Source: Pocillopora verrucosa
Taxonomy: Eukaryota > Cnidaria > Anthozoa > Scleractinia > Pocilloporidae
Length of the DNA: 64,000 bases
Reading direction: 5' to 3'
Assembly (NCBI RefSeq): GCF_036669915.1
Contig: NC_089314.1
Location: forward strand, 28,813,592-28,877,591
Shown here: positions 3,808-55,029 of the stretch, in pieces
How the letters are laid out: every line of letters begins with the position of its first letter
Numbering within the stretch: the stretch's first letter is position 1
Translations under genes and position numbers: made by a program
Notes under the pieces: generated by a model
Seen by the model: the letters and a program-made list of their open reading frames with translations, nothing else
What the model was told of the DNA's origin: nothing
The model's database searches: none

Positions 3808-4815
3808 TTAAAAATAAGATCCCAGTTTTCTATTGAAAAGGAAATCTTTGACGTTCTTATGAATATGATGAAGTTTGATTAAACACTGTCCAGTCGCGCG
3901 GTGCTGCAGAAGAACGTTTGGGACAAAATTACAGTCGTCATAATCATCAATCGGCATAAAGAACCCTCTATGACCCACTGCTATCACACCAATGGCATGA
4001 GCAAGCATTCCTACATAAACATCGTCCATCCTATACGGCTTAATTACATCAAACAGGGGAACAATGCACTCGATAACGTCATACGTCATAACAAAGCCAG
4101 CCCCACTACAGAAATCTGGATAGTGAGTGTGGTTGTACTCTTCGTAGCTGACTTTCCATTTACCGTCTCGACGTACACGAGGATTATGATGAATTCGTCC
4201 CAGGAAAAGTCTCTTTTCTGGAGTTGATTCCTTTTGCAAAAAGAGAATTAAATCAGCGGTATTAACCAGGATATCGTCGTCTGCTTTCAAAATGTAAGAA
4301 AAATTACAATATCGCGATGCCCACTCAAAGGCCATCATAATCTTAAAACTCTGTCTCCAGTAATTCTCGTAATAGTCCGCGCGAATCAAGTCTCCATAAA
4401 CTTCGTCTTCCTTATCGACAAAACGTGAATGTGTTTGATCCTCTGTTTTCGCAATAAGAAAGTATGTCTTCCACTTTGGAGACACGTTATTGTCAGTGCC
4501 CCAGGTTTGACGAATTAGATTTCTTCTACCTTGGTTTGCAGGTGCAGATGACACTAAGATGAGAAGAAAATAGTTCCTTGAACATGATTTCGTTGTTATC
4601 AAAGTCGTTTTATGCCGTGGAGATTGTTTCCAAATTTTACAATCGTGGCTTGGTCCAGACTGACGGGGAGTTGGAGCATCGGAAGGGAATCTTATTAGAG
4701 TACCACAAACGATGGTTGTTACCAAGGCAGCCAATGCCACAATAATGGTTCTAAACTTTCCTCTATGAATTTTCGATATGAAACAGACCAAACAGTATCT
4801 CAGTTTACGAAACAT
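3808..4815 (-). CDS. Beta-1,3-galactosyltransferase-like glycosyltransferase (GT31), copy 1
   Basis: An intronless 335-residue type II membrane protein. It has a short basic cytosolic tail, one hydrophobic anchor at about residues 23-43, then a lumenal GT31 domain. Visible GT31 motifs are RRNLIRQTWG (about 97-106), the metal-binding KADDDILVN (about 178-186), HYPDFCSGAGFV (about 232-243) and MDDVYVG (the family's EDVYVG with Asp replacing Glu). Length suits the animal B3GALT/B3GNT family, which adds Gal or GlcNAc in beta-1,3 linkage in the Golgi using UDP-sugars; donor and acceptor cannot be told here. It lies downstream of the 82-bp array. The copy at 18257-19264 differs by six residues, three of them Arg gains in a short loop after the DxD motif (Q to R, G to R, L to R going from copy 2 to copy 1). 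Any 5' UTR exon is not identified. Confidence 0.94.
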   Translation of the reverse strand: MFRKLRYCLVCFISKIHRGKFRTIIVALAALVTTIVCGTLIRFPSDAPTPRQSGPSHDCKIWKQSPRHKTTLITTKSCSRNYFLLILVSSAPANQGRRNLIRQTWGTDNNVSPKWKTYFLIAKTEDQTHSRFVDKEDEVYGDLIRADYYENYWRQSFKIMMAFEWASRYCNFSYILKADDDILVNTADLILFLQKESTPEKRLFLGRIHHNPRVRRDGKWKVSYEEYNHTHYPDFCSGAGFVMTYDVIECIVPLFDVIKPYRMDDVYVGMLAHAIGVIAVGHRGFFMPIDDYDDCNFVPNVLLQHRATGQCLIKLHHIHKNVKDFLFNRKLGSYF

Positions 4816-5671
4816 ATCTGGAGTCTTTCACTGGTTACACGAAGCCACACCTCTAAAAAATCCGGGACCCCCTTACCTAAAAATAATTGGAATGTCATCA
4901 ATGTGAGTTACTAGGCTGCAAAAGCAAAAACAAGGACAGCAGCAAAAAAACAAGAAAACCTTTACCTAAATGAAATTTCACTCTACCACGCTAATATCCT
5001 TTATATAGGGTATAGGGTTGAATGTTTGAAAAGATGAACCCGATAACAGATCAATTTTGGACACAAAAAATACAGGAACACCCTTGATTCCCCCCCCCCC
5101 CCCCTTACTTAAAACGAGTTTGAACTGACCAAGTGATGTCTTTAAGTGACTGTACAAGACGACAGCGAAATAAGTGATTATGTAAAGGTTTCAAATGAGG
5201 CCCTGAGCTCTTGTATAAAGAATAATTTTCCAAGCTTTCACCGATCCACGAAATCATCACGGGTAGTAGTTGTTTTAAAATACAGCTTTATATATCTGAG
5301 TGAATTCACAAAAACATACGCAAAAACACAACAAACTTAAAGTCAATATCCGTACACAAACCTCTCAAACTTGAATACTTCCCCAACCGAAATGATCTAG
5401 TTCACTAGAAGGCCCTTCTAGTCCCGGGGATGCCACAAAGCATGGGTCTAACTCTAAATCAATGGACAGAGGCCAAAAAAATCCAGCCTCATAATAACTC
5501 AACCAAGATGCCCACTTCTTTGCAAAAAGCAAATCCCCCAAGAGTAATAAGTCAAAAACCTACCCTTCCCACCACCCGAACTTTCCACACAGAGCCATTT
5601 GCAACCCACCCCTGGAAAGGTTGGTGACTGGGCTGCATGCAGGCCCTACCCTTACCAAGTTGCATTCTTCT

Positions 5672-16011: not shown

Positions 16012-17697
16012 TTAACCCTTTAAACAATAAGAGTGACTGGCATCAAATTTCTCCCTACAGTACCACCCCTAAATCACATGTTAAGGTTATGAGAATAAAA
16101 GAGTGACCCCAAGAGTGACTAGTATCAAATTTCTCCCTACAGTACCACCCCTAAATCACATTTTAAGGTTATGAGAATAAAAGAGTGACCCCAAGAGTGA
16201 CTAGTATCAAATTTCTCCCTACAGTACCACCCTGAATCACATGTTAAGGTTATGAGAATAAAAGAGTGACCCCAAGAGTGACTAGTATCAAATTTCTCCC
16301 TACAGTACCACCCCTAAATCACATGTTAAGGTTATGAGAATAAAAGAGTGACCCCAAGAGTGACTAGTATCAAATTTCTCCCTACAGTACCACCCCTAAA
16401 TCACATGTTAAGGTTATGAGAATAAAAGAGTGACCCCAAGAGTGACTAGTATCAAATTTCTCCCTACAGTATCACCCCTGAATCACATGTTAAGGTTATG
16501 AGAATAAAAGAGTGACCCCAAGAGTGACTAGTATCAAATTTCTCCCTACAGTACCACCCCTAAATCACATGTTAAGGTTATGAGAATAAAAGAGTGACCC
16601 CAAGAGTGACTAGTATCAAATTTCTCCCTACAGTACCACCCCTGAATCACATGTTAAGGTTATGAGAATAAAAGAGTGACCCCAAGAGTGACTAGTATCA
16701 AATTTCTCCCTACAGTACCACCCCTGAATCACACGTTAAGGTTATGAGAATAAAAGAGTGACCCCAAGAGTGACTAGTATCAAATTTCTCCCTACAGTAC
16801 CACCCCTGAATCACACGTTAAGGTTATGAGAATAAAAGAGTGACCCCAAGAGTGACTAGTATCAAATTTCTCCCTACAGTACCACCCCTGAATCACACGT
16901 TAAGGTTATGAGAATAAAAGAGTGACCCCAAGAGTGACTAGTATCAAATTTCTCCCTACAGTACCACCCCTGAATCACACGTTAAGGTTATGAGAATAAA
17001 AGAGTGACCCCAAGAGTGACTAGTATCAAATTTCTCCCTACAGTACCACCCCTGAATCACACGTTAAGGTTATGAGAATAAAAGAGTGACCCCAAGAGTG
17101 ACTAGTATCAAATTTCTCCCTACAGTACCACCCCTGAATCACACGTTAAGGTTATGAGAATAAAAGAGTGACCCCAAGAGTGACTAGTATCAAATTTCTC
17201 CCTACAGTACCACCCCTGAATCACATGTTAAGGTTATGAGAATAAAAGAGTGACCCCAAGAGTGACTAGTATCAAATTTCTCCCTACAGTACCACCCCTG
17301 AATCACATGTTAAGGTTATGAGAATAAAAGAGTGACCCCAAGAGTGACTAGTATCAAATTTCTCCCTACAGTACCACCCCTGAATCACACGTTAAGGTTA
17401 TGAGAATAAAAGAGTGACCCCAAGAGTGACTAGTATCAAATTTCTCCCTACAGTACCACCCCTGAATCACATGTTAAGGTTATGAGAATAAAAGAGTGAC
17501 CCCAAGAGTGACTAGTATCAAATTTCTCCCTACAGTACCACCCCTGAATCACATGTTAAGGTCATGAGAATAGAGGAAACGATCACTAAAGAAAGAAGAT
17601 TTAGATTGGTAAACAAATTCTCCTCGTCAGCACCTAGGAAACGTATAGAGAGCAGTATGGAGAATATGCATACTGGTTTTAGGGTGTAAAAGGTGTA
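16012..17697 (+). repeat. Family A MITE containing an 82-bp satellite expansion (array copy 2, complete)
   Basis: Left end TTAACCCTTTAAACAATAAGAGTGAC at 16012, right end TTTTAGGGTGTAAAAGG near 17679-17696. In between, about 18 units of 82 bp precede a single unrepeated right half. Single-copy family A elements elsewhere (for example 45611-45825) show the unexpanded form. The unit junction falls at GAGTGAC, which occurs both near the element's left end and at the end of the unit, suggesting microhomology or slippage as the start of the expansion. Confidence 0.93.
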
Positions 17698-17765: not shown

Positions 17766-20700
17766 TTTTGAGAGCAACTCAGTCAAAGCCATTGTGGCAC
17801 CGTCATATGATACTCTAAAATACTATAATTTTTTCATGTGTAGCTTTAGCCGGTACTTCGCGAAAGTCTGTTCATCTGACTTTTGAATAACGGTTGTTCT
17901 GTAACCTCATCTTTTGAATTTTGTTATTACACATATGGTTTAGTTTTAGTGCTCCAGATATATTTTGTTATTACACATATGGTTTAGTTTTAGTGCTCCA
18001 CATATGGTTTACTTTAGTGCTCCAGTTATTGCTTATAAAGTTAATAATCGTGTAAGGGTAGGTCACGCAATATTAGAAGTAGATAACAAAAGGTTGGAGT
18101 TCTCACCTCTTAATTGACGAATTAAGACATACCATGAGGTATCTCTGGGGAGCCTTTGATTTTTGTCTTAGTCTTTTTACATTTGTCAAATTTTACTTGA
18201 CCGCGCCAATGTCCTTCAGATATGGAGATAAACAAAGTCAAGTATGAAATAACAAATTAAAAATAAGATCCCAGTTTTCTATTGAAAAGGAAATCTTTGA
18301 CGTTCTTATGAATATGATGAAGTTTGATTAAACACTGTCCAGTCGCGCGGTGCTGCAGAAGAACGTTTGGGACAAAATTACAGTCGTCATAATCATCAAT
18401 CGGCATAAAGAAGCCTCTATGACCCACTGCTATCACACCAATGGCATGAGCAAGCATTCCTACATAAACATCGTCCATCCTATACGGCTTAATTACATCA
18501 AACAGGGGAACAATGCACTCGATAACGTCATACGTCATAACAAAGCCAGCCCCACTACAGAAATCTGGATAGTGAGTGTGGTTGTACTCTTCGTAGCTGA
18601 CTTTCCATTTACCGTCTCGAAGTACACCAGGATTATGATGAATTTGTCCCAAGAAAAGTCTCTTTTCTGGAGTTGATTCCTTTTGCAAAAAGAGAATTAA
18701 ATCAGCGGTATTAACCAGGATATCGTCGTCTGCTTTCAAAATGTAAGAAAAATTACAATATCGCGATGCCCACTCAAAGGCCATCATAATCTTAAAACTC
18801 TGTCTCCAGTAATTCTCGTAATAGTCCGCGCGAATCAAGTCTCCATAAACTTCGTCTTCCTTATCGACAAAACGTGAATGTGTTTGATCCTCTGTTTTCG
18901 CAATAAGAAAGTATGTCTTCCACTTTGGAGACACGTTATTGTCAGTGCCCCAGGTTTGACGAATTAGATTTCTTCTACCTTGGTTTGCAGGTGCAGATGA
19001 CACTAAGATGAGAAGAAAATAGTTCCTTGAACATGATTTCGTTGTTATCAAAGTCGTTTTATGCCGTGGAGATTGTTTCCAAATTTTACAATCGTGGCTT
19101 GGTCCAGACTGACGGGGAATTGGAGCATCGGAAGGGAATCTTATTAGAGTACCACAAACGATGGTTGTTACCAAGGCAGCCAATGCCACAATAATGGTTC
19201 TAAACTTTCCTCTATGAATTTTCGATATGAAACAGACAAAACAGTTTCTCAGTTTACGAAACATATCTGGAGTCTTTCACTGGTTACACGAAGCCACACC
19301 TCTAAAAAATCCGGGACCCCCTTACCTAAAAATAATTGGAATGTCATCAATGTGAGTTACTAGGCTGCAAAAGCAAAAACAAGGACAGCAGCAAAAAAAA
19401 ACAAGAAAACCTTTACCTAAATGAAATTTCACTCCACCACGCTAATATCCTTTATATAGGGTATAGGGTTGAATGTTTGTAAAGATGAACCCGATAACAG
19501 ATCAATTTTGGACACAAAAAATACAGGAACACCCTTAATCCCCCCCCCCTTACTTAAAACGAGTTTGAACTGACCAAGTGATGTCTTTAAGTGACTGTAC
19601 AAGACGACAGCGAAATAAGTGATTATGTAAAGGTTTCAAATGAGGCCCTGAGCTCTTGTATAAAGAATAATTTTCCAAGCTTTCACCGATCCACGAAATC
19701 ATCACGGGTAGTAGTTGTTTTAAAATACAGCTTTATATATCTGAGTGAATTCACAAAAACATACGCAAAAACACAACAAACTTAAAGTCAATATCCGTAC
19801 AAAAACCTCTCAAACTTGAATACTTCCCCAACCGAAATGATCTAGTTCACTAGAAGGCCCTTCTAGTCCCGGGGATGCCACAAAGCATGGGTCTAACTCT
19901 AAATTAATGGACAGAGGCCAAAAAAATCCAGCCTCATAATAACTCGACCAAGATGTCCACTTCTTTGCAAAAAGCAAATCCCCCAAGAGTAATAAGTCAA
20001 AAACCTACCCTTCCCACCACCCGAGCTTTTCACACAGAGCCATTTGCAACCCACCCCTGGAGAGGTTGGTGACTGGGCTGCATGCAGGCCCTACCCTTAC
20101 CAAGTTGCATTCTTCTTCAAAGGATATGTTTGATGTGTTCGAGTAAACCGCAAATGAGAGAACGTTTGACGACGTAGCTTTCAAATCGATAACATTGTCG
20201 AAATGCAGAGGGGAAATCAAGAACAAAGATGAAACTAAACTCGATGAGATTCATCAAGCGATGGTCAGTGTCGAAGATGAACCAGGAGGAGTCACGAGAG
20301 ACGTTAGGAGTGTCTCACGATAGTCCACCATTTTGAAAACCGCGAGGGGCTTGGGGAGGGTTTACGGACTCAAATTAACACGACAGCATGACAGTGCCTA
20401 CGGCCTTCCTTGAAGGAAGGCACAGTGGGCAAAAAATGAAACAATGCTCGCTCACTTTTGCCAATGTGATGGCCCCATACACTGAAGCCTCACACGCTTT
20501 GTTCTCCCATTATCTGCTGAATGATTTTGTCCAGTTTGTTTGGAGGTTCCCGGCAACATGGAAGTTCGCACGCCTAACAAAAGAAAGACTGTGATATCTA
20601 TACTTTATAAGCTTTACAATGATATATTGTTTTTTTTTTTTTCTATGGTTTCTTCAAAAGTAGTGCGCGTAGGACGATTTTTCCGGAAGGCACCCTATTC

Positions 20701-26769: not shown

Positions 26770-28370
26770 GGCCCAAGCTTACGTCTCTAGAAGAAGCAAA
26801 CGATTGATTCATGAAAGCAGAGCGATTAGGTGTCATGTCATGTGATGAAAGTCTGCGCCGACAATAACTCTAAACCGTCACCAAGACAATATTCTATCTT
26901 ACTGTAATTCGATTTTGTTCTATTGTCCATTTTTTAGCTTTTCGCTCTTCTATTGTACTTTTTCACACCCTCCCCTGTATATATTTCCATTCACGCGCTT
27001 ATATTTTTTACATTCGTTAAAGGCTATAGTATAATAGCCGAAAGCTCATATTTTAAAACCTTTTTAACTAGAGAACGTTTTTTTACCTTTCTCACTATGT
27101 CATATCCTGATTACAGTTCAATTTTTAAAACTCTGATTGCTTCTGAAAAATGGTAAATCATTAATTCACATCGTAACGCATTTTTCAAGTAAAATTTTGA
27201 GTTATACATTTTTGGAACGCATTTGGAAGCCATCGGAGTTTGTTATTCAACAGTTTGAAATTACCGCAATGTTAGTGCTCACATGCCGGCTTTTTCTGGA
27301 TCTGTGAAAAATATGCAAATTGTTTGGAAGTCAGCCAAGCGAAACTAGCATTAACTTAAAAATGTTCTGACCCAAGTATCAGCATTACATCCGAAGCATC
27401 AGTGTGACGATAAGTTTTCGCCCAAACTGGAGGACTGAATTTTCGCGGACGGCACAATTACAACTGGGGGAAATAACTCGGTAGAGACGACTCGGCAGCT
27501 AGAACGGAAACTCGTCACGATTTCCTGGTACACGGAGATCTGCTTCGAGCGAGCTTATACGGACGTCAAGGATAAGACGATCTTTGGTTCCACAGTACTT
27601 TTATTTTAGGTCAGGCCAACAAGCGACATGACCTCTAGCATACTCTAGTTTGTAATCATCAAAGCTGTACAAGGTACTTGCTTAAGAAGTAACTGGTGTG
27701 AAGTGCTATTGTTACACAAATCGCAATATTTGAATAAGGACACAAAGGAGCGGAAAAAAGTCTCTTTGAAGTTAAACGAAAACTACTTAAATATTCCATC
27801 TGTTTCTACGACGGAAAGAACCTCAAAATTAAAAAGACGGATGCAATAAACTCTATGCCATTAAAGTAGGAAACTTAGGTGCGAATTTACAGCTCTGGTA
27901 TGGAAAATAATACCTATCTTAATAATTGCAGTAGCGCAGCTTAGGAAATAAAAAACGGAAAAGCAATTAAAAGTTTCTGCTTACCCATGCAAGATTGGCT
28001 TGGAAACCATCGCATGAAAAGAAATTAAAGTTACGAGTATAAACTCAGCTGCTATCTACCATGAAAACCAATGTTTCCAGAAAGACCATTAACACTTATA
28101 TTTACCTAAAAAAACCATGTAATAAATAACAAAAGTGCCGACAAGCAGGTGCATATGATGAAAGCGAGTAACAACAAAAATCTATTCAAAAGCTACTGTG
28201 GTTTTTCATGCATTTTTTTGATTTATTAAAATGAAAGGACTTGAAATGGTTAAATGTGAAAGTTTACGAATGAATATGTACCGAATAACACACACGGGAA
28301 AATCAATGAATTTTCTCGTAACATCAGTAAGCACTCTTTTTACTAAGTTATTATTAAGTTATTGCTAGAT
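26770..28370. other. Intergenic, no gene seen
   Basis: AT-rich, with interrupted short frames. Sequence related to copy 1 ends near 26765; a short box GGCGGCCCAAGCT at 26767 also occurs near 9683, hinting that copy 2 lost about 400 bp of the duplicated unit. Confidence 0.55.
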
Positions 28371-28376
28371 ATATGG

Positions 28377-28470
28377 CGTTGGCGAAGTGACCAGTAGGAC
28401 GTTGGCGAAGCGACTCATCGCGTTGGCGAACGTGACATTGGCGAAATCACTCGTTGGCGAAATCGATTGT
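28377..28470. repeat. Transposon-end-like cluster of GTTGGCGAA repeats
   Basis: Five loosely spaced copies of the GTTGGCGAAGTGAC type (spacing 15-22 bp) lie in 94 bp. The motif resembles, but is distinct from, the GTTTGCGAAGTGAC subrepeats of the element at 22402-25803. No matching inverted end was found nearby, so it may be a single remaining terminus. It directly abuts the THAP relic. Confidence 0.6.
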
Positions 28471-29910
28471 AACAACGACTCGAGGTACACAACTGGTATA
28501 TCCTACCATTGCTTTCCGAGGGATGAAGCTCTACGATCACAGTGTCTGGCAAAGATCTCACGAGCGGATCTGGTCTTTTCGAAAAACTCCAGGCTGTTCT
28601 CAGAACATTTTACACCTGAGTGCTACGTACGAGACTTGAAAGCAGAAATTCTTTGTTTGAAACCCAGATCTACGCTAAAACCAGGTGCGATACCCACGTT
28701 TTTTTTTTGGGTTGTTGCAAACTCTTAGAGCTGCTCATCACTTATGCATGATTGATAAAAAAATTGAAAGGTGAATGCTGTTTGGGGGCAATAACAATTA
28801 TATCTTAAGGGATATCACCCGAATAGGTTCCATAGAGAAACATTAAATTTTCACAGAAAAGTATTTCTTCTCCTTAAGCAAAACAATATTCTAGTTTCAT
28901 GTTTTTTTTTTCTGAGTAATCTTTGTACTTTGTCTCTCCTGAAAATTTTTGACCAGTAGGTAAGCAAAATTAAATTGTTTCAGAATGAAGTGATTATTCT
29001 TTAATTCTAGGAACATTTTAACTGTCCCTTGTTAACCAGCAGGTGAACAAAATTAGTACAAATAGACTATATATAAATTGTGGATATTATTCTTTAAACA
29101 ATGAATTTTTTTTAACCTTCTTTACTTCTATGCGAATAAAAACTTAATACAACTGGAAATTTTAAGTTAAAACCACTGCAGGCTTTCAACCAATGGAGGG
29201 CAGGGTCAGGTGTTATATTTTCCAAGAAAATCCCATTGAATCATTTGCTGTAACCATATGGTAGCATAGTTTATCCCCTATACCTACATTTTTCATTCTC
29301 TCAAAGGGTCTCTAACCCATACCATAACAGAGTTAATATTTTTTCTGTTATAGTATATAGCCTCTGTAACTGCACAACCTAGTTGAGGAATCGAAGAGCA
29401 TGCAGCGAACACCAAGGGGAAATAAAATGCGAAAAGCCACAGGGTGATACCAAATACATTGTATTGTCCTGAGTGTGGTACAGCTGTGATTAAGAGGAAC
29501 CAATCCACACAAGGAAGCCAATGTATGAATAATCATGAGTACTCCTGGCAAAGCCAGCCAATGCTTGAGGGGATGACAGCTGGAAATTTGTTGCTGTCAT
29601 CATCTATTTTGCTCAGTGGCTCTACCTTTACAAAAGTAGCATATTTAGCAGATATCTTAAATTTGAAAATTTTCAGTGAGAAAACACTTGTAATCAATGA
29701 GTTCTGGTTTAAAGAACAAAATTCCACTTTTTCTGAGCTAGGGGGCGAGAACTGTGGCTTTCAGGGGGTGAGCGCTGTGACAGTCCTGGCCACAATGCAA
29801 AATATGGGACATATACTATGATTGATCAGAAAACTGATAAGATTGTTGACTTCAAGATCGTTCAGGTCAGTGAAGAAAATTATAGCAATGCCATGGTTTA
29901 ATGCCATAAT
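28440..29910 (+). pseudogene. Decayed THAP-domain transposase-like gene
   Basis: The first part, in the open frame 28387-28728, shows a THAP zinc-finger pattern: FPRDEALRSQ, SRLFSEHF and the terminal GAIPTFF (AVPTIF-like box). Expected zinc ligands and a Trp are changed (SEHF lacks the preceding Cys; SQCLAK has Cys in place of the usual Trp). A second frame, 29444-29821, encodes a region starting CPECGTAVIK with a following LLSSSILLSGS; in cnidarian THAP proteins, as I recall, such a segment lies between the THAP finger and an RNase-H-like core. The coding continues shifted at about 29800-29900 (YTMIDQKTDKIVDFKIVQV). Frameshift, ligand loss and missing catalytic region mark it as dead. Confidence is lower for the mid-region's family. 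Confidence 0.65.
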
Positions 29911-30519: not shown

Positions 30520-31478
30520 TAAAAAATCAACCCTCAGGTACACACTACCTAGGAGTTTATGGACGAGATTAAAAATAACCCTCAGGTATACACTACCCAG
30601 GAGGGTATAGAAGAGATTAAAAATAACCCTCGGGTATACACTACCCAAGAGGGTATAGAAGAGATTAAAAGTAACCCTCCGGTATACACTACCCAAGAGG
30701 GTATAGAAGAGATTAAAAATCAACCCTCAGGTATACACTACCCAGGAGTTTATGGAGGAGATTAAAAATAACCCTCAGGTATACACTACCTAAGAGGGTA
30801 TAGAAGAGATTAAAAATAACCCTCGGGTATACACTACCCAAGAGGGTATAGAAGAGATTAAAAGTAACCCTCCGGTATACACTACCCAAGAGGGTAAAGA
30901 AGAGACTAAAAATCAACCCTCAGGTATACACTACCCAGGAGTTTATGGAGGAGGTTAAAAATAACCCTCAGGTATACACTAGCCAAGAGGGTATAGAAGA
31001 GATTAAAAATAACCCTTAGGTATACACTACCCAGGAGGGTATAGAAGAGATTAAAAATAACCCTCGGGTATACACTACTCAAGAGGGTATAGAAGATAAT
31101 AATAATAACCCTCCGGTATACACTACCCAGGAGGGTATAGAAGAGATGGAAAGAAACCCTCAGGTATACACTATCTTAGTAGGTATAGAAGATATTAAAA
31201 ATAACCCTCAGGTATACACTACCCAAGAGGATTTAGAAGGTATTAAAAATAACTCTCAGCTGTACACTACCCAAGAGGATATAGGAGAGATTAAAAATCA
31301 ACCTTCAGGTATTCACTACCCAGGAGGGTATAGAAGATATTAAAAATAACCCTCCGGTATACACTACCCAGGAGGGTATAGAAGAAAATAATTAAAAATA
31401 ACCGTCAGGTTTACACTACCCAGGAGGGTATAGAAGTGATTAAAAGTAACCCTCAGGTAAACATTACCCAAGAATGAT
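30520..31478 (+). repeat. 48-bp minisatellite, about 20 units, with a four-unit higher-order repeat
   Basis: The unit reads roughly AACCCTCAGGTATACACTAC, then CCAGGAGGGTATAGAAGAG and ATTAAAAAT. A variant unit with GAGTTTATGGA recurs at 30555, 30748 and 30941, exactly 193 bp apart, so four units (one of 49 bp) form a higher-order repeat in the left half. The right half is more diverged. Open frames exist on both strands across several units but are broken by the 193-bp step, so this is not a gene. Confidence 0.92.
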
Positions 31479-31821: not shown

Positions 31822-33238
31822 AGGAAAGGGTACCGAATACCCGAAAAGTGGGATGGGTACCAACTCCAGTTTATTCTGGCACTAGACGAAAGTAGTTTCT
31901 CAAGTGCACCTCGCATATTTTTTTAATTTCGGAGCGTTATCTTTTGGTGTCCTTCTCACATGCTCAGATGGACCATTCTCGTGACTAACTATGCCCTTTT
32001 CTCACCTCTACTCTCTTCTCGTCTCGGGATAGGACGTAACTGTAACCTTTTTTAGATAAACAAACAAACGTATGCGTCCACGAAACGTTATAGGCTTGTA
32101 AAACTGATACGACGTCCCCTTTGCTGTGGTTTTCACTGATTAAGACTCCATTCTGACCATTCTGCTCTCATGAAACTGGGGAAAAGTTTGGCGATTTCTG
32201 TCGAGCTTCCAGCTACGGAACCTGCGGCACTACTTCAGGTGCTTCGAGAAGAAATAGTTCTTGGCACAAGTTGACGTTGAATTTTGCTTAGGAGGGTTGC
32301 TTCTCTATAACATTTTTGAAGTATTGTCTCCCCGCAACATACCCACAGTCTGGTTGATGGGGTCGAGGGCTTCATCATACCGATTTTCATTCTGGTTTGG
32401 ACCTGTTGTCCTGAGTAATTACCACATAAAAAGATGCAATAATGTCGTTTTATTGACAAATGATAGAAAGCTTAAGTGCAATAATTACTTTTGCATACCC
32501 AATGTTATTTATGATAGGAAGACCGCTTGATATTCAGGCAACGGGTGTTACTAATAACCAAGTTATTTTGTGTTGCGTATAGCCGGTCCAAGTTTTTTCA
32601 ATCGTAGCTTGGTCCAAACCGATTACGAAAAGGGGTTGGAGCACCCAGACATATTTTTTTCTCTCCGGTGCATTCTGCGGGTGACTAACATGTAATTTCT
32701 CCTTACAAAATCTCGTCTGAATCACACATAAGGTCATAAGAATAAAGGAATGATCAACAACTAAAGAAGCTCTTGATTGTTAAACAAATTCTCCTTGTCA
32801 GCACCATGAAATTTATGATGAACAGTATGGAGAATATGCATACTGATATTAGGATGTGAAGGGTTAGGAGGAGTCATGAGGGTTTCACGTAGGCTATCAT
32901 TTCTTAATCAACTCTTTATCGGGAAATCGTGTGAGTCATTTCTCGTTTCGGTGATGAAAGACAATTCATCCTGCATTTTCTTAACCAACGCCTTTCACGA
33001 AAACAAATAACGCACTGTTTCGTAATTACTGTCGGTGTCAGGTTCCTGTTCTTGTGTCGGTCATAATATGTGTTTTAAATACAACAGAGTATTTGGAACA
33101 ATAGCATCAATCAATCATCGTAATTTCTGTGAAGAAGTTGAATTTAGCAACATGTTTCGGATCCACGTGAACAGTTAGGAAAGTTTATTTAACGACTCGA
33201 CCAAATGCAGGAGTTACTGGACTCTATGCGAGATTCTC
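31822..33238. other. Intergenic, includes an eroded family A element
   Basis: Contains a family A copy at 32679-32866. The short frames at 32235-32530 have no recognisable family. The DSL gene's 5' UTR and promoter should lie in the last few hundred bases, but no TATA or initiator can be assigned with confidence. Confidence 0.5.
32679..32866 (+). mobile_element. Family A miniature element, left end eroded
   Basis: GGGTGACTAACATGTAATTTC, ATCACACATAAGGTCA, TCTCCTTGTCAGCACC and AGTATGGAGAATATGC boxes in family order. The right end is TTAGGATGTGAAGGGTT; the left CCCTTTA end is not intact. Confidence 0.75.
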
Positions 33239-36200
33239 ATGATGTTCATAACAGCCATTTCTACTCTACTAGTAATGTTGACGGTAAGCTTCTTCAACGA
33301 ATACACACTTGATACCATCTCGCACGCAAGAGGAGAAGTTAATTCTTAACACAGTATTTACATTTTGGTCATCGTAACTCTGAGCCAAAACAACGGTTTT
33401 CAATTAATATTCTCTACTCTTTTCGATCGCTTTCAAAATACAACATGTTTTATGTAGTGTGGGCCAAGCATAGATGTAATATATGATCTCTCTTTTCATA
33501 AACCTTACGAGCTTCACTTTTAGACAAGCACTCACGGAGCCCTGAATGTAGAAATCAAACTACTTACGATTGTTGACCATGAACCAAGAGACTGTTGAAA
33601 AACTAGATAATAAGATGTACTTAGTTGTTAAAAAAAAATGAAAAATTTTACTCGATCTAGGCGCAGAATAGTTGCCGTCTATAGGCCAGTCGACCTTTAC
33701 CTCTAGGCCGAGGTCATCCCAAACTGACTGATATTCGCCACGTCTTTGTTCTCCATAACCTTTCGGCTTTAAGTTTTGTACCCTACTGATCAATTTTGCA
33801 CTCCCTTGAGTAATCCTTATGTGAATTTTTATCAATTTTTTTCAAAATTTTATTGAAATACAATCACCAATAATTACGAAAAGAGGCCTCACACAGCTTT
33901 CAACTTTGTGGGATTGCGTGAACTCGATATAGCTGAATAACGCAAATTAGAACAGAGGATTACAAATATTTTTCTGCAGTTTCATAAAATAGGGTTTACG
34001 TTCGCGAGCATACGTTTGTCAAATACCCAGAGCATAACTGGAGCCTGTAGCGCGAGCGCAATTTGTAGACTGAAATTTTATCAAATGTTCATCATGATTC
34101 TAAATTGCACGAAAATCATTGTACTTCTTGTTGATGGTGCATTAACAATTAATTTAAACTTTCAGCGCTCAATTCGAACTTTTTCTACTGTTTTCAATTG
34201 ATTAACGAGTTCTTGACCGATGAGCATTCAGAAAAATGCGGATAAATCCTTACTCGCATAATTCAAGCTTCATTTTCGGTAGGCACTATTTGGATCACGA
34301 ATTACGCGAATTAGCTGCTCTTAGAATCATTTTCCTTGTTATTTTCCTCTTTAATTGCGGCAGTCATTTTTTTCGAGTGATTATTAATAATTATGTTTTA
34401 TTGAACATAGCTGATGGTATTGAGCAATTTGCAAATGAGTGTCGGGAGTCATTCGAGACGGCGTCGATTCTGTTTCACTTTGCCTTGTAATTGTTTCGTT
34501 GCGCAAAACTCTCAACCAATCAGAGGAAAAGTTAAGACCATCGTTACTATGTCACTTGCGTTTTCCCGTGCTTGCTCTAGTTTGCTTGTTTTTACCTTGA
34601 ATTCTTAGCTCTTTCTGATATTTTTTAGTGTTTCAGCTACCTACTTAATTACGTTTTCGCTCAGGAACTCCCATGAAGATCTCAAGGAAACAAAACTCAC
34701 TGTTTCCCTTGAGGCCAGTCAATAATTGCTGACTATTATGACCGGCTTTTGTGATTACTTTCGCCTGGGTTGACTCTTATTCTGACGAGATTCTAACGAG
34801 TTGTCGTTATAATTAATTTCAGGGCTATTGCTGTGGTTGGGGACTGTTATCAATCAAACTGGTTAATTACAAAAACCCTGGCAGTACGTTATTCAACGGA
34901 GAATGCTGTGACACTGTGGGTTGGTGCCTCGATCAGTGTGAAAATTATTTTAAATTCTGTGTCACTGCACTTGGTTCTCTGAATACCTGTAATCTCGGTT
35001 CTACCGAGACAAAAGTACTCGGGGATGACGACTTTAGTTTCCCTGGCGTTGGAGCTAGTCTGGGAACGAATTTGCAAAATCCGCTGACATACAACTTCTC
35101 TTCTTGGCAGGTACAAACCCTTAACAGAAGGTGGAGCAGATTTTAATTGGGCCCAATGTTTTTTTAACCGGGTGTGACTTCTTTTACGTTGTTTCAATCA
35201 GTGATCTGTCTAGAGAACTCATGACAGCCTTGTTACAATTTATTACAACTACGAAACAGATGTCGGGTCCAAATATTATCTATTTAATAAGCTGAATAAT
35301 ACACGCATTTTCAGTTGTTCTTACTTTTGATAATTTTGAGGACAGACAATTGATGACGTCACTTTGAGGAACGTTTTCTCTCTTTCTTATGTAAAACCAA
35401 GATGAAGATTCAATGTTGCCATATATTTGTTCGGCAGAAGATCACAGAAGATATATAAGACGTCAAAAATTTGGCAAGAATTTCAGTGGCATACTTGGCT
35501 GCGCCGCTCTATTACTTAGCAAACTTTCGGCAACAGGGAATCATTTTGTTGAACAGATGTCAGATACTATCAGATGGAAGAGAGCAGGAGTTGCTAAGTT
35601 CTCAAGGCTATAAAGACATTCGCGTCTCGTTTTTTCTTTTTTACCCTGAGCTGTCAAAGGCACCTCGTGATATTCTTTTTTGTCCTGATTAGTCGTTTTG
35701 ATTTTTTTTGTTTGGCTGTTCAACACCGAGCTTCGGGGGATTTGGGACGAGAGTTAAGTTGTAATCTTAATAAGTGATCATTTGCCTTATAGTCTGAGTT
35801 TTGCACATTCACGCTAGAAAAACAAACATGAGAAACCAACAGAATAGCAACAGTTGATATTCTCTTGGAGAAACACTTTACCATGCCTGGAGATCTCAGA
35901 GACTGCCTCAGTTAGCATACGTGTTATCAACGGTGGGTAAACGATGGCTGGTTCTTTTATTTTCCAATCTAATGGTGTTTTCTCTAGTTTTATTCTGAGT
36001 ATTTTCTTTTTTTTCCCAGGGAAGTACTGTTGTGGTGGAAGTCTGGGATGACGACGGTAGTCAGATCGTTGGAAAACTTCATGATTTTGTGGACAAGTAC
36101 ACTTTAACGATAACTCGTGACGCTGATCCGGATCCAAAATTTGACACACAAGAAATAAAGACGTTATGCGGTAAACGGTCGTGTATGACCGTGATAGTCA

Positions 36201-39200
36201 CGCTACATTGTGCCACCAGTTATCTGGTACCCGACTGTGGAATGTATTGTGTGTCACGTAACGATAGTCTTGGTCACTACCACTGTAACTATACTGCCGG
36301 GCGGAAGGAGTGTGACGAAGGATGGTATGATCCTTCAACGGATTGTGTAAAGAAGAAGAAGGTGTGTGCTCCTAGGAATGACTCCTCAGGACACTACTCT
36401 TGTGATCCTGTCAGTGGAGAGAAATTCTGCCTAGATGGGTGGACTGGGGATAACTGTACACAAGGTAATGGATCTCTTAAAGTGGCGATGCAAAGTTAAC
36501 ATTTTTTCCTGAGTGTAACTTAGAAATGGGGGGGGGGGGGGAGGGGGGGGAAGGGTCCTACAACGGTGTCTTATGGAACCAAGGAGCATAATGGGACATT
36601 TCCTATAAAAGTCTTTTTTACTTTCCCGTAATAAAAGTGGAGGAATCGGCCCTTGAGCTGTGACAAAACCACTCTTAGTAAGGTAGAAAATAATGTATTT
36701 GAATTATTTATAACTTTGTTTGTTTTCAGTTTGTCCTTTTCCGTCTTGTGAATCAAGCTGGTTCAAGTCTACAACAGAGCAAATCTCCCCTCAAAGCTCT
36801 CTAACATTAAAAGTGAGGACATCTATACCAACACCTGAGATGACGAAGTATACCACACTAACTACCACAAAACAATCTGCAGCGAATCTCACTCCTTTAT
36901 CGAGAAGTTATTTAACTGCGATACAGACGCCTTCACTCCGTTCTTCAACCTCTCATCCTTTAACTGAAGGCCCAGTGAGCACCAGTCATGAGACATTTGA
37001 AACGCGTCTACAGTTCTCAACTTCATCGCTCACCCAAAATGACTCTATAAAGAAGAGTATTTTGGCTGTTCATGTTTGGTCCAGTCATTCAACACCAACG
37101 CTACAATCAAATCTGTCATCAACTCTGTCTTCGCTTTCATCATTATCAACAACCTCTTCATCAAAATCACCATTTTTATCCCCATCCTCCACGTTTCTCA
37201 TTCAAATACTTGCGCATGCTTCCATATCTTTCTCTACTACATCGCCGACCACATGTGCATCGACTTTCCATTATGTTCCCAGTCTTACATCCTCGCTTGA
37301 TCAAAATCCTACTTTCGTGCTGGTTCCCAGTCCCACTTTCTCGCTGTTTTTCAATCCCACATTCTCGATGAATCCCAGCCCAAGTGCAGGCCGTCCAAAA
37401 AATGGCGTAGAAATTGAAATGAGACCTGGGTACAATGTAAGTAATTATTTTTCTTTAATCACTTTTTTTCTAAGAGTATCGAGTGATTGAAAGTGATGGT
37501 AATGCTTATCTTGTGAATAAAAATAGTAGCATGCCATTGACAGCTTCTAGAGCACTCCTTTTACTCGGCGTTTAGTTTGGGACAAAATTTGCGATCCGAC
37601 CTCGACAGTGAACCAGCTATCCAGACTGACAAAAGAGTGACAGATACTTTAATTTCCACAAGAAGAGGTCTTACTGTAGTCATTAAACTCGAAGCTCAGT
37701 ATTTATCTAAGAAGTGGAACGCACGAGAACACGAAAAAAGTGTAAATCACGAGCCAGGGGCAAGTAAATTTCAAACTTTTCGAGTATTCTTCTTATTGCA
37801 CCGCTAAAGCGATAGAAAGTGCGGTGTACGTGCTATTATAAAACAAAACACCGTATTTTTCCATTTTCCTTGGGTTTACCGGTGCAATTAACGAATCATA
37901 GATTTTCGACCAATCAGGGCGCTCGTATTATCTCAGTTATCTTCCACCTCCTCCAACAGTCTCTTCGCCTTTTCTCATCTCCTCTCTCTCCCATTTTCTC
38001 ATATCCTTACCTTTCCTCTTTTACTTACTGTCCTTACTAGATTCTACATCACTTCAACTGTTTTTAGGGTTTCCGCACATGCACGCACTGTATCAACCCT
38101 TTTACGATAATTGTATATCATTTCATATGTTTTCTTTTGCAGTGGACAAGAGAAAGTGAGGAACAAGTTAAACTAGAGTTGATTAGTACTATCAATAAAT
38201 TCTGTATGAAGCATTTACGACCATGTCAAATTACTACGAACGCAACCTTAAACAGGTAACGAAATAAGCTGTGATGTCTTGGAATTCAAGACGGTATTAG
38301 TAACTTATAATTTAGGGTAGGCAACGATCTGTTGTTGCTTGGAGTGCTTGTCGTTTGGTTGTCGTAAAAACAACACCAAAGTGATCACAACGACAGATCA
38401 GAAGAAAGATGAAAAACCTTCGGAGCCCGCAATGACAACTCATATTAAAAACAAACAAATTACCGAGACCGCGGGAAGACGCGGGTGACCAAGTGGCGAT
38501 TGATTTTAGTTTTGCATCTGATTGGTTGAGAGAGAGTGGCGCGAGTTTTCTGAACCAATCACAGAGCGAAGTAAAGCAAAAGCAAAGCAATCCAAGATTA
38601 CTTTTGACGCTCAATAGAAAGTTGCTCTATCTTGCCTGTGATACACACATGACAAAATAAATTTTCTGATATATTTTACAGATATATTCCTGTCACTATT
38701 GTTTTTTTTTTGTTTGTTTGTTTTCCTCAAGAACGGTATTTAACATGTCACATGTCGTTTTGAAAGTTGTGCATGGCTTAGACGGGAAAGTCTACGTCCG
38801 ATGTAAAGTGAAGATTCCCATGAACGTACCACATGTACCCGGCTCAGGTGAGGTCCAGTTATAATTGTGCCTTAGATTATAATACCTCTTTTTGTTTGCG
38901 TCGCAGGTGTAGAAATTGCTCATTGATGGGTTTTTACTATTCTATGCTGTCTGTAGTAATGACTTTTTTTCGGTTGCATTGCATTCCCCCACGCAAAAAT
39001 TCATGATGTTCTTGCGTGTATCTGCTCCTTTGAGGTATATATTCTATGTGAAAAAACTATTTATTTCACACATACTGAGATTTATACTGTCAAGTGTTAA
39101 TGTTCGTGTCTTTGACTGGACGAACGATATAATTTCACAGTCGTTCCCTTCAAATCTTTGAAATGTGTCGGTCATTTCTCAGTAGGAATGAAACGAAAAC

Positions 39201-40423
39201 ATGATTACCAAAAAAATGCTTGCACAAGTTTTCACTCGTTGCGATGCATGAAAAAACTCGCTCGTTTGCTGCGCCCACTTGGTCGTTTTTTTTTTTTTTA
39301 TGCATCGCAACGAATAAAAATTGTACAAGCCCTTTCCATGGAATAATCTCTGTTATCTCGTCCTGAGACGAGGATTAGAAAAAGACATCTACGTTTTTTT
39401 TTCTTTCTTGTATTTCATTCTTTTCAAGGATACTTGCAATCTGTTGTACTCAAACGAATAATTTTGGAGAGCAAAACGCCTTTGGAGAAGAATCTTGACG
39501 CAAAGATTGTGACTGTCAAGGAGATTGGTTGGGACCAACCAAATCCTTCCCCAGCAAAACCGTCGTCCGCTAGTTCCAGTATCATTAGGACGATCACAGT
39601 CCAACCAACCACCAGGCAGACTCACTATCCTAGCTTCCTTCCGTATGTCTTGGTGGGCCTGTGTTTGCTTGCCGGACTGATAGTGATTGTTGCATTTTAC
39701 AGGTAACTGATTCTGGAACCCTTTGCCAGTTTCTCAGTTCAATAAAGCGATGCACAAATAATCCACAAATGAAAATGCACCCTTGAATCACAAATGGAAT
39801 GAGCGTTCATGCATTTCCACCACAAACCATTTTCATTTCTACTTGTCTCAGGAGGAGCAAGTTACGTCAAGCCAGAGTGCTGCCTGAACCAGAGTGCCCC
39901 ACAGAGGAAGAACTGTTGGTCTTACCAAACAGGAAATCAACAGTGCGACCATTTTCAGCTCCGACTGATACAACAAGAAGGGTACGGCAGGGTTTCCAGT
40001 GATCAAAATATTTTGCAAGGTTGTTCAGGGTTGAAATAGTATTGAATACGTTGAGTGTTAAAAAGAACAATTAATAGGTCCAAGATTGCAGTAATTATTA
40101 AAAATTGCATGCTACGGAATCATATTAGTTTGCTTTCGCCGAAGTTGATCTTCCGATTTTTATTTCACCAGGATAACTTTCACAACGACTCCAGGTTACT
40201 TCACGAAAGTTCAGAAGGCTCCAGTAGACGTCAGAAATACGTAACCTTTCGATCAGAATCGCGTCTTCATGAATTAAATAACCTTTATGTGAAGTCACTA
40301 AATAAAAACAAAGACTCTGTTGACACTTGCCACGAGGAGAAAAACTTATTCCTGTCGTTTGAGAGACTGCAAGAACTCACTTTGCCGGGGGTTTTCATCA
40401 AAGATAAGGATGGACACCCCTGA
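33239..40423 (+). CDS. DSL/Notch-ligand-like membrane protein without EGF repeats (nine exons)
   Basis: Coding exons: 33239-33283, 34823-35110, 36020-36464, 36730-37436, 38143-38255, 38732-38847, 39429-39702, 39852-39981, 40172-40423. All introns are GT-AG and phases close to a 789-residue protein. Order: signal peptide (MMFITAISTLLVMLTG), Cys-rich MNNL-like domain (about 25-140), a six-Cys DSL domain (about 175-220, spacing C-x8-C-x3-C-x11-C-x8-C-x10-C, with GHYHC), a second partial DSL-like module (about 227-257, GHYSC and CLDGWTGDNC), a long Ser/Thr-rich stalk (about 260-500), a juxtamembrane segment, a transmembrane helix (about 640-661, FLPYVLVGLCLLAGLIVIVA) and a basic 128-residue tail. 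Delta/Jagged ligands carry many EGF repeats; none is recognisable here. Likely a cell-surface signalling or adhesion protein; Notch binding is inferred only from domains. Confidence 0.83.
39218..39331. repeat. Intronic fold-back repeat
   Basis: CTTGCACAAGTTTTCACTCG with TTGCGATGCAT at the left is mirrored by ATGCATCGCAACGAATAAAA with ATTGTACAAG at the right, giving arms of about 31 bp around a T-rich loop. It lies in an intron of the DSL-like gene. Probably a small MITE remnant. Confidence 0.75.
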
Positions 40424-40733
40424 CCACTACAAGATCAAGCAAAACTGTGGCAGAACGTGGGTTAAACTGGTCGGCCGAAATTTTTCGCAGACACCGACTT
40501 CGATAAAAATCGATATATCATCTGTAATGCAAGAGTTTTATTTAGTAATCAAGGTTATGCCACATGTAATTAAGGCTCGCGTGAAAGGAATGAAAGCGTA
40601 AACGAGCCCTAACTTTACGCCGCAGCGCCTTAGTTTTACGACTAAGGGGTACCAGATGAACTGCTAGTGGTCGTGTATCAATCACGGGCCGCTTGTTCGA
40701 ATGCTACTTCGCTCCAACCCTGGAGTACGAGTC

Positions 40734-40946
40734 AACCCTTTACAACCCTAAAATTAATATCCATAATCTCCATACTCCTCTCTGTACATTTCTCAAGGTG
40801 CTGACAAGGAGAATTCGTTTAACAGTCAAGAGATTCTGTAGTTGGTGATCATTTCCTTTATTCTCTTAACCTTAGGGAGTGATTTAGGGATGATGATGAT
40901 GTGAGAGGAAATTAGATGCTGGTCAATCTTAGGGTGTAAAGGGTTA
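40734..40946 (-). mobile_element. Family A miniature element, reverse orientation
   Basis: Starts AACCCTTTACAACCCTAA and ends TTAGGGTGTAAAGGGTTA. Internal CATACTCCTCTCTGTACATT and GGTGCTGACAAGGAGAATTC are the complements of family A boxes. Confidence 0.85.
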
Positions 40947-41052
40947 CACTTTTTTTTTTTAAGAGTTAAGAGGGGCTGATCGGTTTTGGGCTTTAATCTT
41001 GAATTGAGGGAAATCTGAACGAAACATGTAAATAGTAAATTTGTCTGCACAG

Positions 41053-52515: not shown

Positions 52516-53892
52516 TCATTTGTAGTTGTTTAAGAGGTAATTTTTGATACCATTGGGTACTGGAAGTGAATTGATTTTATTTCCTGGCACACTGTGCAAG
52601 ATCACCACTCTGCACAAATGTTGCAAGTCAAATCTCATGGGCATGGCCCAAACTCGAACCATACTATCACTGTAACCAGCTGCTACATACTGTTGGGATT
52701 TAGAAAAAGCAATGGAGTAAACAATGGTATTTTGAATCCTGAGACCAAAAGGGCTAGGTTCTTTTATGCATTCTAATAAAAACAGTGAATCCAGAGTTTC
52801 AGCCCCAAGCATAATAATATTGGCATCTGACGTTCCAACAGCAATCATCTTCCCGTCAGGAGAATACTGACAGCAGTGCAACAGTCGGGAAAATGATACT
52901 TTACGTTCTTTCTCCCGCGCATAGCGCAGTTCTCCAGCATGGGCACTTGAATGAACTTCAACCTTGTTCCAGATTTCCACGCGACCGTCCTGCATACAAC
53001 ACGCAAGCACCTCGAATCTCCACGCAGGATTAAAAATACTCCAGCACACATTTCCTCGGCATCTTCTCCTTAAAACGGTCACGACATCCAGATTTTTGCT
53101 GCGTAAGATACACAGTTGTTCTTTGGAAGTCGAGACAGCGAGGTACTGACCATCCGGAGAAAATTCACAACGGGTAACGAAGCCACAGAAGTCTGTTATA
53201 TCGCGTAAAACAACTCTCGCCTCGATCTGCATGGACTTCACGTTCCACAATCGCAACTCGTTGGTCTCCCTCATACTGTGAAAATCAAGAGAAGCAGCGC
53301 TAACAATGTGACGAGCATCTGGTGAAAACTTACAGCAAAGTGTTTGACCAGTCATTCCATTGCAACAAGGTTGAAATTTATCCACTCGCTCTGCGATTTC
53401 AGCATAAGAACTTCGGTTTCGTTTGACAAGCGCGACTTCTCCTTGTCCAGAATTAGTAATGAAAGATACAAGATTGCCGTCGGATGAGATGTCACACTCT
53501 TGCGAGTGGTAAGTGAGGAGTTCCCTTTTGCAGGACCCTGAGTTGATGTCAAATTCTCTTAAATGGCCACATCCGATATCAGGGGTAAACGGTCCACAAG
53601 GAATCGGTGTAGTTGACGTCAAAAGCAGAGCTTCGTCGTCTGGCGAAAAAACACAACAGTGAACCTCTTCGTGAAACCTTCTGGGTTGTTCATCTTCTTC
53701 ATCTTCGTCTTCTAGGTTTCTTACAGAACCCCGATAATGATGCAACTCAGCAACGATTCGGGGAAAATTAGAGTATACAACGCTTGTATTTCCCTCGACT
53801 GATCTCCTCAACGGCCGCACCGGTTGATTAGGATATACGGCAGGTGTCGGTTTATCGATCTTCTTTCGTGACTTCGTCAGCTTGTTACCCAT
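52516..53892 (-). CDS. WD40-repeat / SOCS-box protein (single exon)
   Basis: 458 residues, intronless. It starts MGNKLTKSRKK, a Gly2 plus Thr/Ser context suited to N-myristoylation followed by a basic patch, suggesting membrane tethering. An acidic stretch (EDEDEEDE, about residues 61-68) precedes about seven WD40 blades with recurring FSPD motifs (FSPDDEALLL, FSPDARHIVS, FSPDGQYLAV, YSPDGKMIAV) and WD-type ends (LRLWNV, VEIWN, VRVWAM). The last 38 residues, LQHLCRVVILHSV to LPVPNGIKNYLL, match the SOCS box, which binds Elongin B/C and Cullin-5. This is the layout of WSB-type substrate receptors of ubiquitin ligases; the substrate is unknown. Direct orthology to WSB1 or WSB2 is not claimed. 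Confidence 0.9.
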   Translation of the reverse strand: MGNKLTKSRKKIDKPTPAVYPNQPVRPLRRSVEGNTSVVYSNFPRIVAELHHYRGSVRNLEDEDEEDEQPRRFHEEVHCCVFSPDDEALLLTSTTPIPCGPFTPDIGCGHLREFDINSGSCKRELLTYHSQECDISSDGNLVSFITNSGQGEVALVKRNRSSYAEIAERVDKFQPCCNGMTGQTLCCKFSPDARHIVSAASLDFHSMRETNELRLWNVKSMQIEARVVLRDITDFCGFVTRCEFSPDGQYLAVSTSKEQLCILRSKNLDVVTVLRRRCRGNVCWSIFNPAWRFEVLACCMQDGRVEIWNKVEVHSSAHAGELRYAREKERKVSFSRLLHCCQYSPDGKMIAVGTSDANIIMLGAETLDSLFLLECIKEPSPFGLRIQNTIVYSIAFSKSQQYVAAGYSDSMVRVWAMPMRFDLQHLCRVVILHSVPGNKINSLPVPNGIKNYLLNNYK

Positions 53893-55029
53893 TTTGATAT
53901 CAGCCAGGAAACTTGAACGAAAACCTCTTATTTTCAGAGTGCGTAGCAGTGTCTTCCTTACTTTGAGAAGGCAAAGAAACGAAAACTTCCGTAGGCGAAG
54001 TTTGGCGAATCAGGTTGTGGCAACAGCTGCTGTACAACAGGGAAGAAGTTGGTGCTGTCAACAAAAACAGCCGATCGCTTCCATCGTAAACATGACAGTT
54101 TTCAAGGGTAATTCCGCTGTACATTAAAATCGATGTAAAGCGAGGGCACTCTTAGACAGGGATGTTGGGGTATAGTACATTATAGGTGTCTCATTTTTAT
54201 GAATTATCTGTTAAAGATATGGCCGGTCAAAAGTAAAAATTTGTTTTATCCATTTTGAAATAACTGGTGATTGCATCCTTGCAAACTGATTGTCTCTCAT
54301 CTGTGCAATTTAATCACGAATCGCACCATTTAATGCTCTCTTCTCCCAGCCAAGCTGAAAGATTTACTGAGACTTAACAACCTATCAGATTGCAAGCCCT
54401 ATTAATTTGATTAAAGTAACTAATCAAATTTCAGGAAAATAAAAGACAACTTTGGTTAAGTCTAGTTATGAGCAACACTATCAGTCTACTTATGTCAACT
54501 CTTATTTATATTACTCTCTGAGGCCCAGTTGTTCGAAGGCCAATTACACCTGTAATGCCAACACAGTTAAATTTTAATCCAGATTTCTTTATTTTTTTGT
54601 TCAAAGCCTTTGTCTGTTATTTTACCTCCCTTCTTTTAAGAGCATCCATGCTGAATTTTCTTTTAAAGCTGTCAGATCTAAAATAAAATTTTTACACCAA
54701 CAGTGGGTTAACTTAACCCACCTTTGAACAACTTGGCCCACTTTAACTGGGTAGCAAAATGAACAGAATTAGTTTTTAAAAAATTGTGGTGAGCTTGAGG
54801 CCCACAGTACTTCTACCCAACTGCCCTTCAGCAGGGTCTCTCCATTTTAGGTAGAAAACTTAATGGAGCAACAAATAATATTCTTTAGAGTCCAAGTTGA
54901 TTGATTGCCAGTGTGCCACAGCCTGGCAGCTGGACAGCTGTTTCCACCTGGTTATTTCTTATCAGCATTTTGGTGTGACCACAAGAAATGCAACAACCAA
55001 TAGCAGTGCTGCTGTCCAAAGCTTGAATA

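Follow-up and report, generated by a model that had tools for sequence, protein, structure and literature searches.

The known ligands of Notch touch EGF12 of the receptor with their C2 domain and EGF11 with their DSL domain (PMC5538765). From cnidarians, with Nematostella as the listed species, Gazave et al. (2009) reported genes that consist of DSL domains only (1-11 repeats) and one gene with MNLL and three DSL domains; in the part of that paper considered here it was left open whether these are true genes or misassembled ones, and the motif YYG is given as part of the DSL domain (PMC2770060). Here, we describe a gene of the coral Pocillopora verrucosa (genome of 353 Mb in 52 contigs) that lies at positions 33239-40423 of the window, i.e. 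of the whole analysed stretch of 64,000 nucleotides (C3:28813592-28877591). As modelled, it encodes a type I membrane protein with a C2 (MNNL) domain and two DSL domains, and no EGF repeats can be detected in it. It is one of five EGF-less genes on contig C3, the other four being called genes B, C, D and E in the following.

Domain composition, DSL tiling and relatives in the genome

In the modelled protein of 789 residues the Pfam scan assigns residues 22-155 to MNNL (1.2e-19) and two stretches to DSL (1.7e-18). Both families clear their cut-offs by a wide margin, and no further family exceeds its own, neither EGF nor VWC, the latter being a feature of Jagged and Serrate. The gene thus shows MNNL with at least two DSL domains and without EGF, the combination that characterizes genes of the Gazave type. 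When the head of the protein (257 residues) is compared with the PDB, ten matches are obtained at E<=0.01 and all of them are Notch ligands, the best being DLL1 (4xbm, 3.9e-12), followed by Jagged-2 (JAG2, 5mw5), Delta and Serrate. The first DSL domain contains six cysteines (C175-C220) with the spacings 8, 3, 11, 8 and 10; the second unit, if scanned alone, reaches EGF_laminin with 0.028, which is below the cut-off.

Serine and threonine make up 38% of residues 267-495 as compared to 17% of residues 1-260, and this stalk carries N-glycosylation sequons. Its exon includes a degenerate 24-bp tandem repeat (37275-37382, 4.5 copies). Between the stalk and the membrane there is a juxtamembrane region (exons 5-7, about 115 residues) without mucin-like character. 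It matches only its own three exons in the genome at E<=1 and only Ig_Shg in Pfam (0.029, below the cut-off); nine PDB matches at E<=10, all of them tau and the best at 0.033, were taken as chance. Judged by eye, its order of strands and helices could suit a SEA-like domain, which no search backs. The transmembrane helix (about 641-661, hydropathy 2.70 over 21 residues) is followed by basic residues; both the signal peptide and this single membrane passage are read from the hydropathy of the model. The tail of 127 residues contains nine lysines and, for the two motifs searched, one YxxPhi (YVTF) and one NxxN (NFHN).

This composition agrees largely with the sequence-only reading, which had proposed a ligand-derived type I membrane protein with an MNNL-like domain, a full six-cysteine DSL domain and a Ser/Thr-rich stalk but without EGF repeats, and which had named a profile search lacking MNNL or DSL as the outcome to speak against it; the search was run and returned both families. 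The transmembrane helix is predicted here as well. Differences concern the length given for the tail (128 residues), which has to be corrected, the additional juxtamembrane region and the second DSL unit (see below).

For the absence of EGF repeats a profile was built from 16 six-cysteine repeats of the genome's own ligands, its spacing pattern omitting the shorter EGF1 type. Among 2479 open reading frames of the whole window (at least 18 residues, six frames) this profile gave no match at E<=0.1, the best being 0.13; three frames appear at E<=1, of which one belongs to the gene, namely its DSL exon (0.45). None of the 1359 frames read from the 36 kb surrounding the four downstream DSL genes matched at E<=0.1. 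As control, the same profile matches 18 of 763 frames at E<=0.01 in 20 kb of an EGF-bearing ligand gene. Hidden EGF exons of the types covered by the profile were thus found neither in the window nor in the downstream cluster, in agreement with the sequence-only reading, which had seen no EGF repeats in its gene.

A genome-wide search gave at least 33 DSL matches, all over the cut-off: 3 on contig C7 and 30 on C3, the latter comprising 2 in the window gene and 28 at 28942658-28965888. The corresponding search for MNNL gave seven matches, three on C7 and four on C3. Genes B, C, D and E are encoded on the same strand as the window gene, about 88-112 kb beyond its end; their models are partial and comprise the MNNL and DSL exons and, for gene B, also a frame with a hydrophobic stretch that resembles a transmembrane segment by eye. 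Gene B is an open frame of 596 residues with 15 DSL stretches (C3 about 28942451-28944238). Its divergent MNNL is missing from the genome MNNL matches as well as from the Pfam scan and became apparent only in the comparison with the window gene (1.5e-5, 28% identity). The DSL array of gene B also matches the Pfam family Teneurin EGF (EGF_TEN, 3.8e-22, above the cut-off), probably via shared cysteine spacing. Genes D and E have almost the same C2-DSL core, with terminal branches of 0.018 and 0.012. Contig C7 carries three EGF-bearing ligands: a Delta-type gene, a Jagged-type gene whose EGF repeats are numerous (both names given by eye) and a third EGF ligand, the one used as control above. The DSL exons of the third EGF ligand (C7:18261333-18261464) and of the Delta-type gene (C7:18306770-18306904) lie about 45 kb apart on the minus strand. 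Viral and prokaryote collections yielded no relative of the window gene.

The cysteines of a DSL domain are spaced C1-8-C2-3-C3-11-C4-8-C5-8-C6. The 62 cysteine gaps of gene B repeat the series 8, 3, 11-12, 7-8, with one 9, one 1 and a final 4 as deviations, and from these spacings the array can be read as a row of four-cysteine units, C5-C6 of each DSL serving at the same time as C1-C2 of the next. This means that the period is about 34 residues and not 45. Overlapping Pfam DSL matches, which follow each other in steps of about 105 bases in the genome search, agree with such tiling. The window gene, with the spacings 8, 3, 11, 8, 10, 6, 11, 8 and 8, has two tiled DSLs with a looser joint.

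The sequence-only reading had recognized in the second unit a half DSL, consisting of the last four cysteines and copied from the first within one exon. The four-cysteine unit is indeed there, but it can be read as a complete six-cysteine DSL that has C209 and C220 in common with its neighbour, and since the same unit recurs 15 times in gene B, the supposed half is rather a module of an array. Its proposed origin by duplication was not supported. Units 1 and 2 are 48% identical at the protein level (15/31), and a search of 36020-37436 for direct DNA repeats of at least 18 bases found none; a recent internal duplication was rejected on these grounds. Of 27 other units compared, the DSL of the third EGF ligand and unit 12 of gene B come nearest to unit 2 (61%, 19/31 each). 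Unit 1 ranks 20th for unit 2 and unit 2 ranks 12th for unit 1, in a comparison that covers all 15 units of gene B and part of those of genes C, D and E, the short first unit of gene C being passed over. Because unit 2 resembles units of other genes more than its own neighbour, the module pair is probably old.

The intron positions separate the two groups of genes. In five of five C3 genes a single open frame holds the first DSL together with the C-terminal C2 half (129-177 bases from marker to marker), whereas in three of three EGF ligands on C7 they are split, being 646-3439 bases apart with stops between. As all five C3 genes lack an intron that is present in all three C7 ligands, a common origin is suggested; the simplest reading would be one loss of the C2/DSL intron before the C3 genes split. 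At the end of exon 3 of the window gene a phase 1 intron interrupts the third codon behind C6 of the DSL (C-T-Q-split codon), and the DSL exon of the third EGF ligand ends at the identical place (C-L-I-split codon), EGF1 coming next. Exon 4 opens with VCPFPSC where this EGF1 opens with PICSHGC. Since it begins at the intron position of EGF1, exon 4 may be a decayed EGF1 exon grown into a stalk, and its 24-bp repeat would suit such growth. In a tree of ten C2-DSL sequences, with long branches of which the program warned, Delta and Jagged fall together with DLL1 and JAG2 on one side and the five C3 genes with the third EGF ligand on the other (98/98).

Putative function and rival explanations

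With evenly balanced confidence, and from sequence comparison, we consider the window gene to encode an EGF-less membrane protein of the Notch-ligand type, i.e. a ligand or modulator of Notch. A membrane-bound ligand or competitor is favoured because both receptor-contact modules are kept and because candidate receptors are at hand: the genome search for Notch repeats (LNR) gave four matches at two places, from which a candidate Notch receptor can be assumed. If expressed and brought to the cell surface, the protein would hold its C2 head and two tiled DSL modules above the membrane, the Ser/Thr-rich stalk and the juxtamembrane region taking the place of the EGF repeats. The five C3 genes would probably descend from a ligand that had lost the C2/DSL intron, and the DSL array would then have grown or shrunk by four-cysteine units. 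At cell contacts the protein might bind Notch, or compete with Delta and Jagged for it, and act as short-range ligand or cis-inhibitor.

The disulfides of DSL domains pair C1-C2, C3-C4 and C5-C6. As a tentative extension, cnidarians might have radiated a set of EGF-free relatives of Notch ligands in which tiled DSLs share a disulfide hairpin and build a continuous rod, and these might constitute either an EGF-independent arm of Notch signalling or a new recognition system made from parts of ligands.

Several observations weigh against the function as ligand or modulator and against the history proposed for it. The YYG motif is absent from the first DSL (CATSYLVPDC, with SYLVPDC at its place). 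The joint between the two DSLs has the spacings 10 and 6 instead of the usual 8 and 3. Exons 4-9 are predicted from open frames and splice sites, and codon log-odds fail to separate exons 1 and 4-9 from introns (137-907 of 1000 controls as high), a failure that may stem from training exons rich in cysteine-rich domains. In the best tree the partner of the window gene is the third EGF ligand (52/46). A single clade of all five C3 genes is neither recovered nor rejected (p-AU 0.256), and a position of the window gene within the Delta/Jagged group is not rejected either (p-AU 0.138). Finally, a phenylalanine at one DSL position is reportedly critical in Jagged1. DLL1, JAG2 and the Jagged-type gene have it, and in the window gene it is replaced by leucine in unit 1 and serine in unit 2. 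This last objection is weak because the Delta-type gene and the third EGF ligand of the same genome also have leucine and serine there and because sponge Deltas are said, in the portion of the report used here, to lack the DSL binding sites essential in bilaterians (PMC3482393). For critical DSL residues Cordle et al. (2008) is the work cited in PMC5538765.

The main rival, to which we give a real though limited probability, is a ligand-derived adhesion or recognition protein that has lost Notch binding. The tiled DSLs would then serve as a cysteine-rich binding rod, and the cluster would have expanded through tandem duplications in the manner of recognition families. This history would agree with a cluster whose genes vary in their number of modules (15 DSL stretches in gene B, near-identical D and E), with the loss of YYG in the first DSL and with the mucin-like stalk. 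Against it stands the strong similarity with which C2, one of the two Notch-contact modules, has been kept, and the two motifs searched in the tail, YxxPhi and NxxN, speak neither for it nor against it.

It is improbable that the gene is decaying, which would mean that it is a former ligand minus its EGF repeats and that exons 4-9 form part of no real transcript. The codon statistics mentioned above and the juxtamembrane region, of which the genome search gave no second copy, would fit, but all nine exons are free of frameshifts and stops, one frame stays open over 258 codons, the splice sites are among the best of the region and the transmembrane helix is followed by basic residues. Highly improbable is a canonical Delta or Jagged gene with EGF exons missed or misassembled away, such as Gazave et al. 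(2009) allowed for similar Nematostella genes (PMC2770060), since the three EGF-bearing ligands are located elsewhere, on C7, the EGF profile (without the short EGF1 type) matches nothing at E<=0.1 in the frames of the window or the C3 cluster, the joined 164 kb of C3 sequence contain no N, and the model continues to a transmembrane helix and tail of its own.

Exon support and neighbouring sequence

The exact phase closure claimed for a nine-exon model in the sequence-only reading was confirmed by splicing, since the nine predicted exons have GT-AG ends and join into 2370 nucleotides, i.e. 789 codons plus stop (Table 1). By codon log-odds, exons 2 and 3 stand out from the non-coding background, none of 1000 controls scoring as high, and exon 3 gives two own-genome DSL matches of 38.2 and 42.9 bits in addition to its two Pfam DSL stretches. 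Of 400 sequences simulated for the region (first order), none contained a frame of the length of exon 4 (258 codons), but 155 and 135 reached the lengths of exons 7 and 9, respectively. All 477 GT and 444 AG in 33000-41000 were ranked with generic consensus frequencies. The donors of the eight introns take ranks 1, 2, 4, 5, 7, 9, 12 and 27 and the acceptors ranks 1, 3, 7, 8, 10, 19, 21 and 74, the last being that of exon 6; these ranks are partly circular because signals of this kind had guided the choice of the model. Exon 1 (15 codons) was placed by its donor site and by expectation. From the codon, frame and splice tests, exons 2 and 3 are well supported and exons 1 and 4-9 are likely, though not proved.

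Table 1. Predicted exons of the EGF-less MNNL-DSL gene (window positions)
Exon	Position	Strand	Encoded part	Basis or remark
1	33239..33283	+	signal peptide MMFITAISTLLVMLT	ATG; donor 2nd of 477 GT; short, without codon support
2	34823..35110	+	N-terminal half of MNNL/C2	Pfam MNNL 22-155; own-genome MNNL match 2.9e-12
3	36020..36464	+	C-terminal half of MNNL/C2, first DSL (C175-C220), second four-cysteine DSL unit (C227-C257)	
4	36730..37436	+	VCPFPSC start, then Ser/Thr-rich mucin-like stalk	258-codon open frame
5	38143..38255	+	beginning of juxtamembrane region	splice ranks; only own exons found in genome
6	38732..38847	+	juxtamembrane region	donor 1st of 477, acceptor 74th of 444
7	39429..39702	+	end of juxtamembrane region, Ser/Thr-containing linker, transmembrane helix	hydropathy, splice ranks
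8	39852..39981	+	cytoplasmic tail	splice ranks
9	40172..40423	+	cytoplasmic tail and stop	

Several other features are found in the neighbourhood. Two near-identical frames of 339 residues lie on the minus strand at 3808-4827 and 18257-19276 of the window, the first of which was scanned and matches Pfam Galactosyl_T (3.1e-42). These copies and their flanking repeats are 14,449 bases apart and represent a duplicated stretch, with an 82-bp tandem array ahead of each copy (1-1918 and 16029-17572). A single-frame protein of 497 residues that combines WD40 repeats with a SOCS box at its C-terminus (2.5e-9) is encoded on the minus strand at 52516-54009, and a frame with a THAP domain (8.5e-12), possibly transposon-related, on the plus strand at 28369-28728. 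At 30522-31473 there is a 48-bp/193-bp tandem array with an open frame of repeats like VYTTQEGIEEIKNNPQ. Downstream of gene E on C3 (joined coordinates 153512-163489), three similar frames with GLKIAL..PKVK.VLLGTPAEE apparently form a tandem gene family.

Comparison with known systems

An EGF-less gene with MNNL and DSL domains is an already reported kind, to which we add the grouping of five such genes on a single contig, the tiled DSLs, the evidence from introns and an architecture with stalk and transmembrane helix. As far as the openly readable literature was covered by a partial search, it describes neither DSL tiling nor a cluster of EGF-less DSL genes in a coral. The presence of five such genes on one contig of 32 Mb, in a genome that has three EGF-bearing ligands too, bears on the question left from 2009 whether cnidarian genes with MNNL and DSL but without EGF exist or result from faulty assembly. 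It suggests a route by which a Notch ligand loses its EGF repeats yet keeps both receptor-contact modules, and it suggests that DSL, beyond its role as a single domain, is a repeat that can be tiled and expanded. The direct question that opens is whether a natural C2-DSL head without EGF repeats binds or blocks Notch.

With canonical Delta, Jagged and Serrate the window gene shares the head of C2 and DSL and the type I membrane topology, the latter as modelled; it differs from them in having no detectable EGF repeats, no YYG in the first DSL and an extra DSL unit. The intron after DSL stands at the identical place as in an EGF-bearing ligand of its own genome, whereas the C2/DSL intron of all three such ligands is absent. 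The gland-cell DSL protein of Hydra (332 residues) is likewise cnidarian and has a signal peptide and a DSL domain; in the part of the publication considered it is likened to a soluble DSL ligand of Caenorhabditis elegans and is described without MNNL, stalk and transmembrane helix (PMC3180645). The sponge protein AmqDelta4 is similar as a Delta-type protein with signal peptide, DSL and transmembrane helix but without EGF; compared by its partial description, the second DSL and the mucin-like stalk are peculiar to the coral gene (PMC3482393). The Nematostella gene listed with MNLL and three DSL domains resembles the window gene in combining MNNL with several DSLs, without EGF, beside a normal Delta and Jagged, and to this plan, again as far as the description consulted allows the comparison, the coral gene adds a stalk, a juxtamembrane region, a transmembrane helix, a cytoplasmic tail and the tiling of its DSL modules (PMC2770060).

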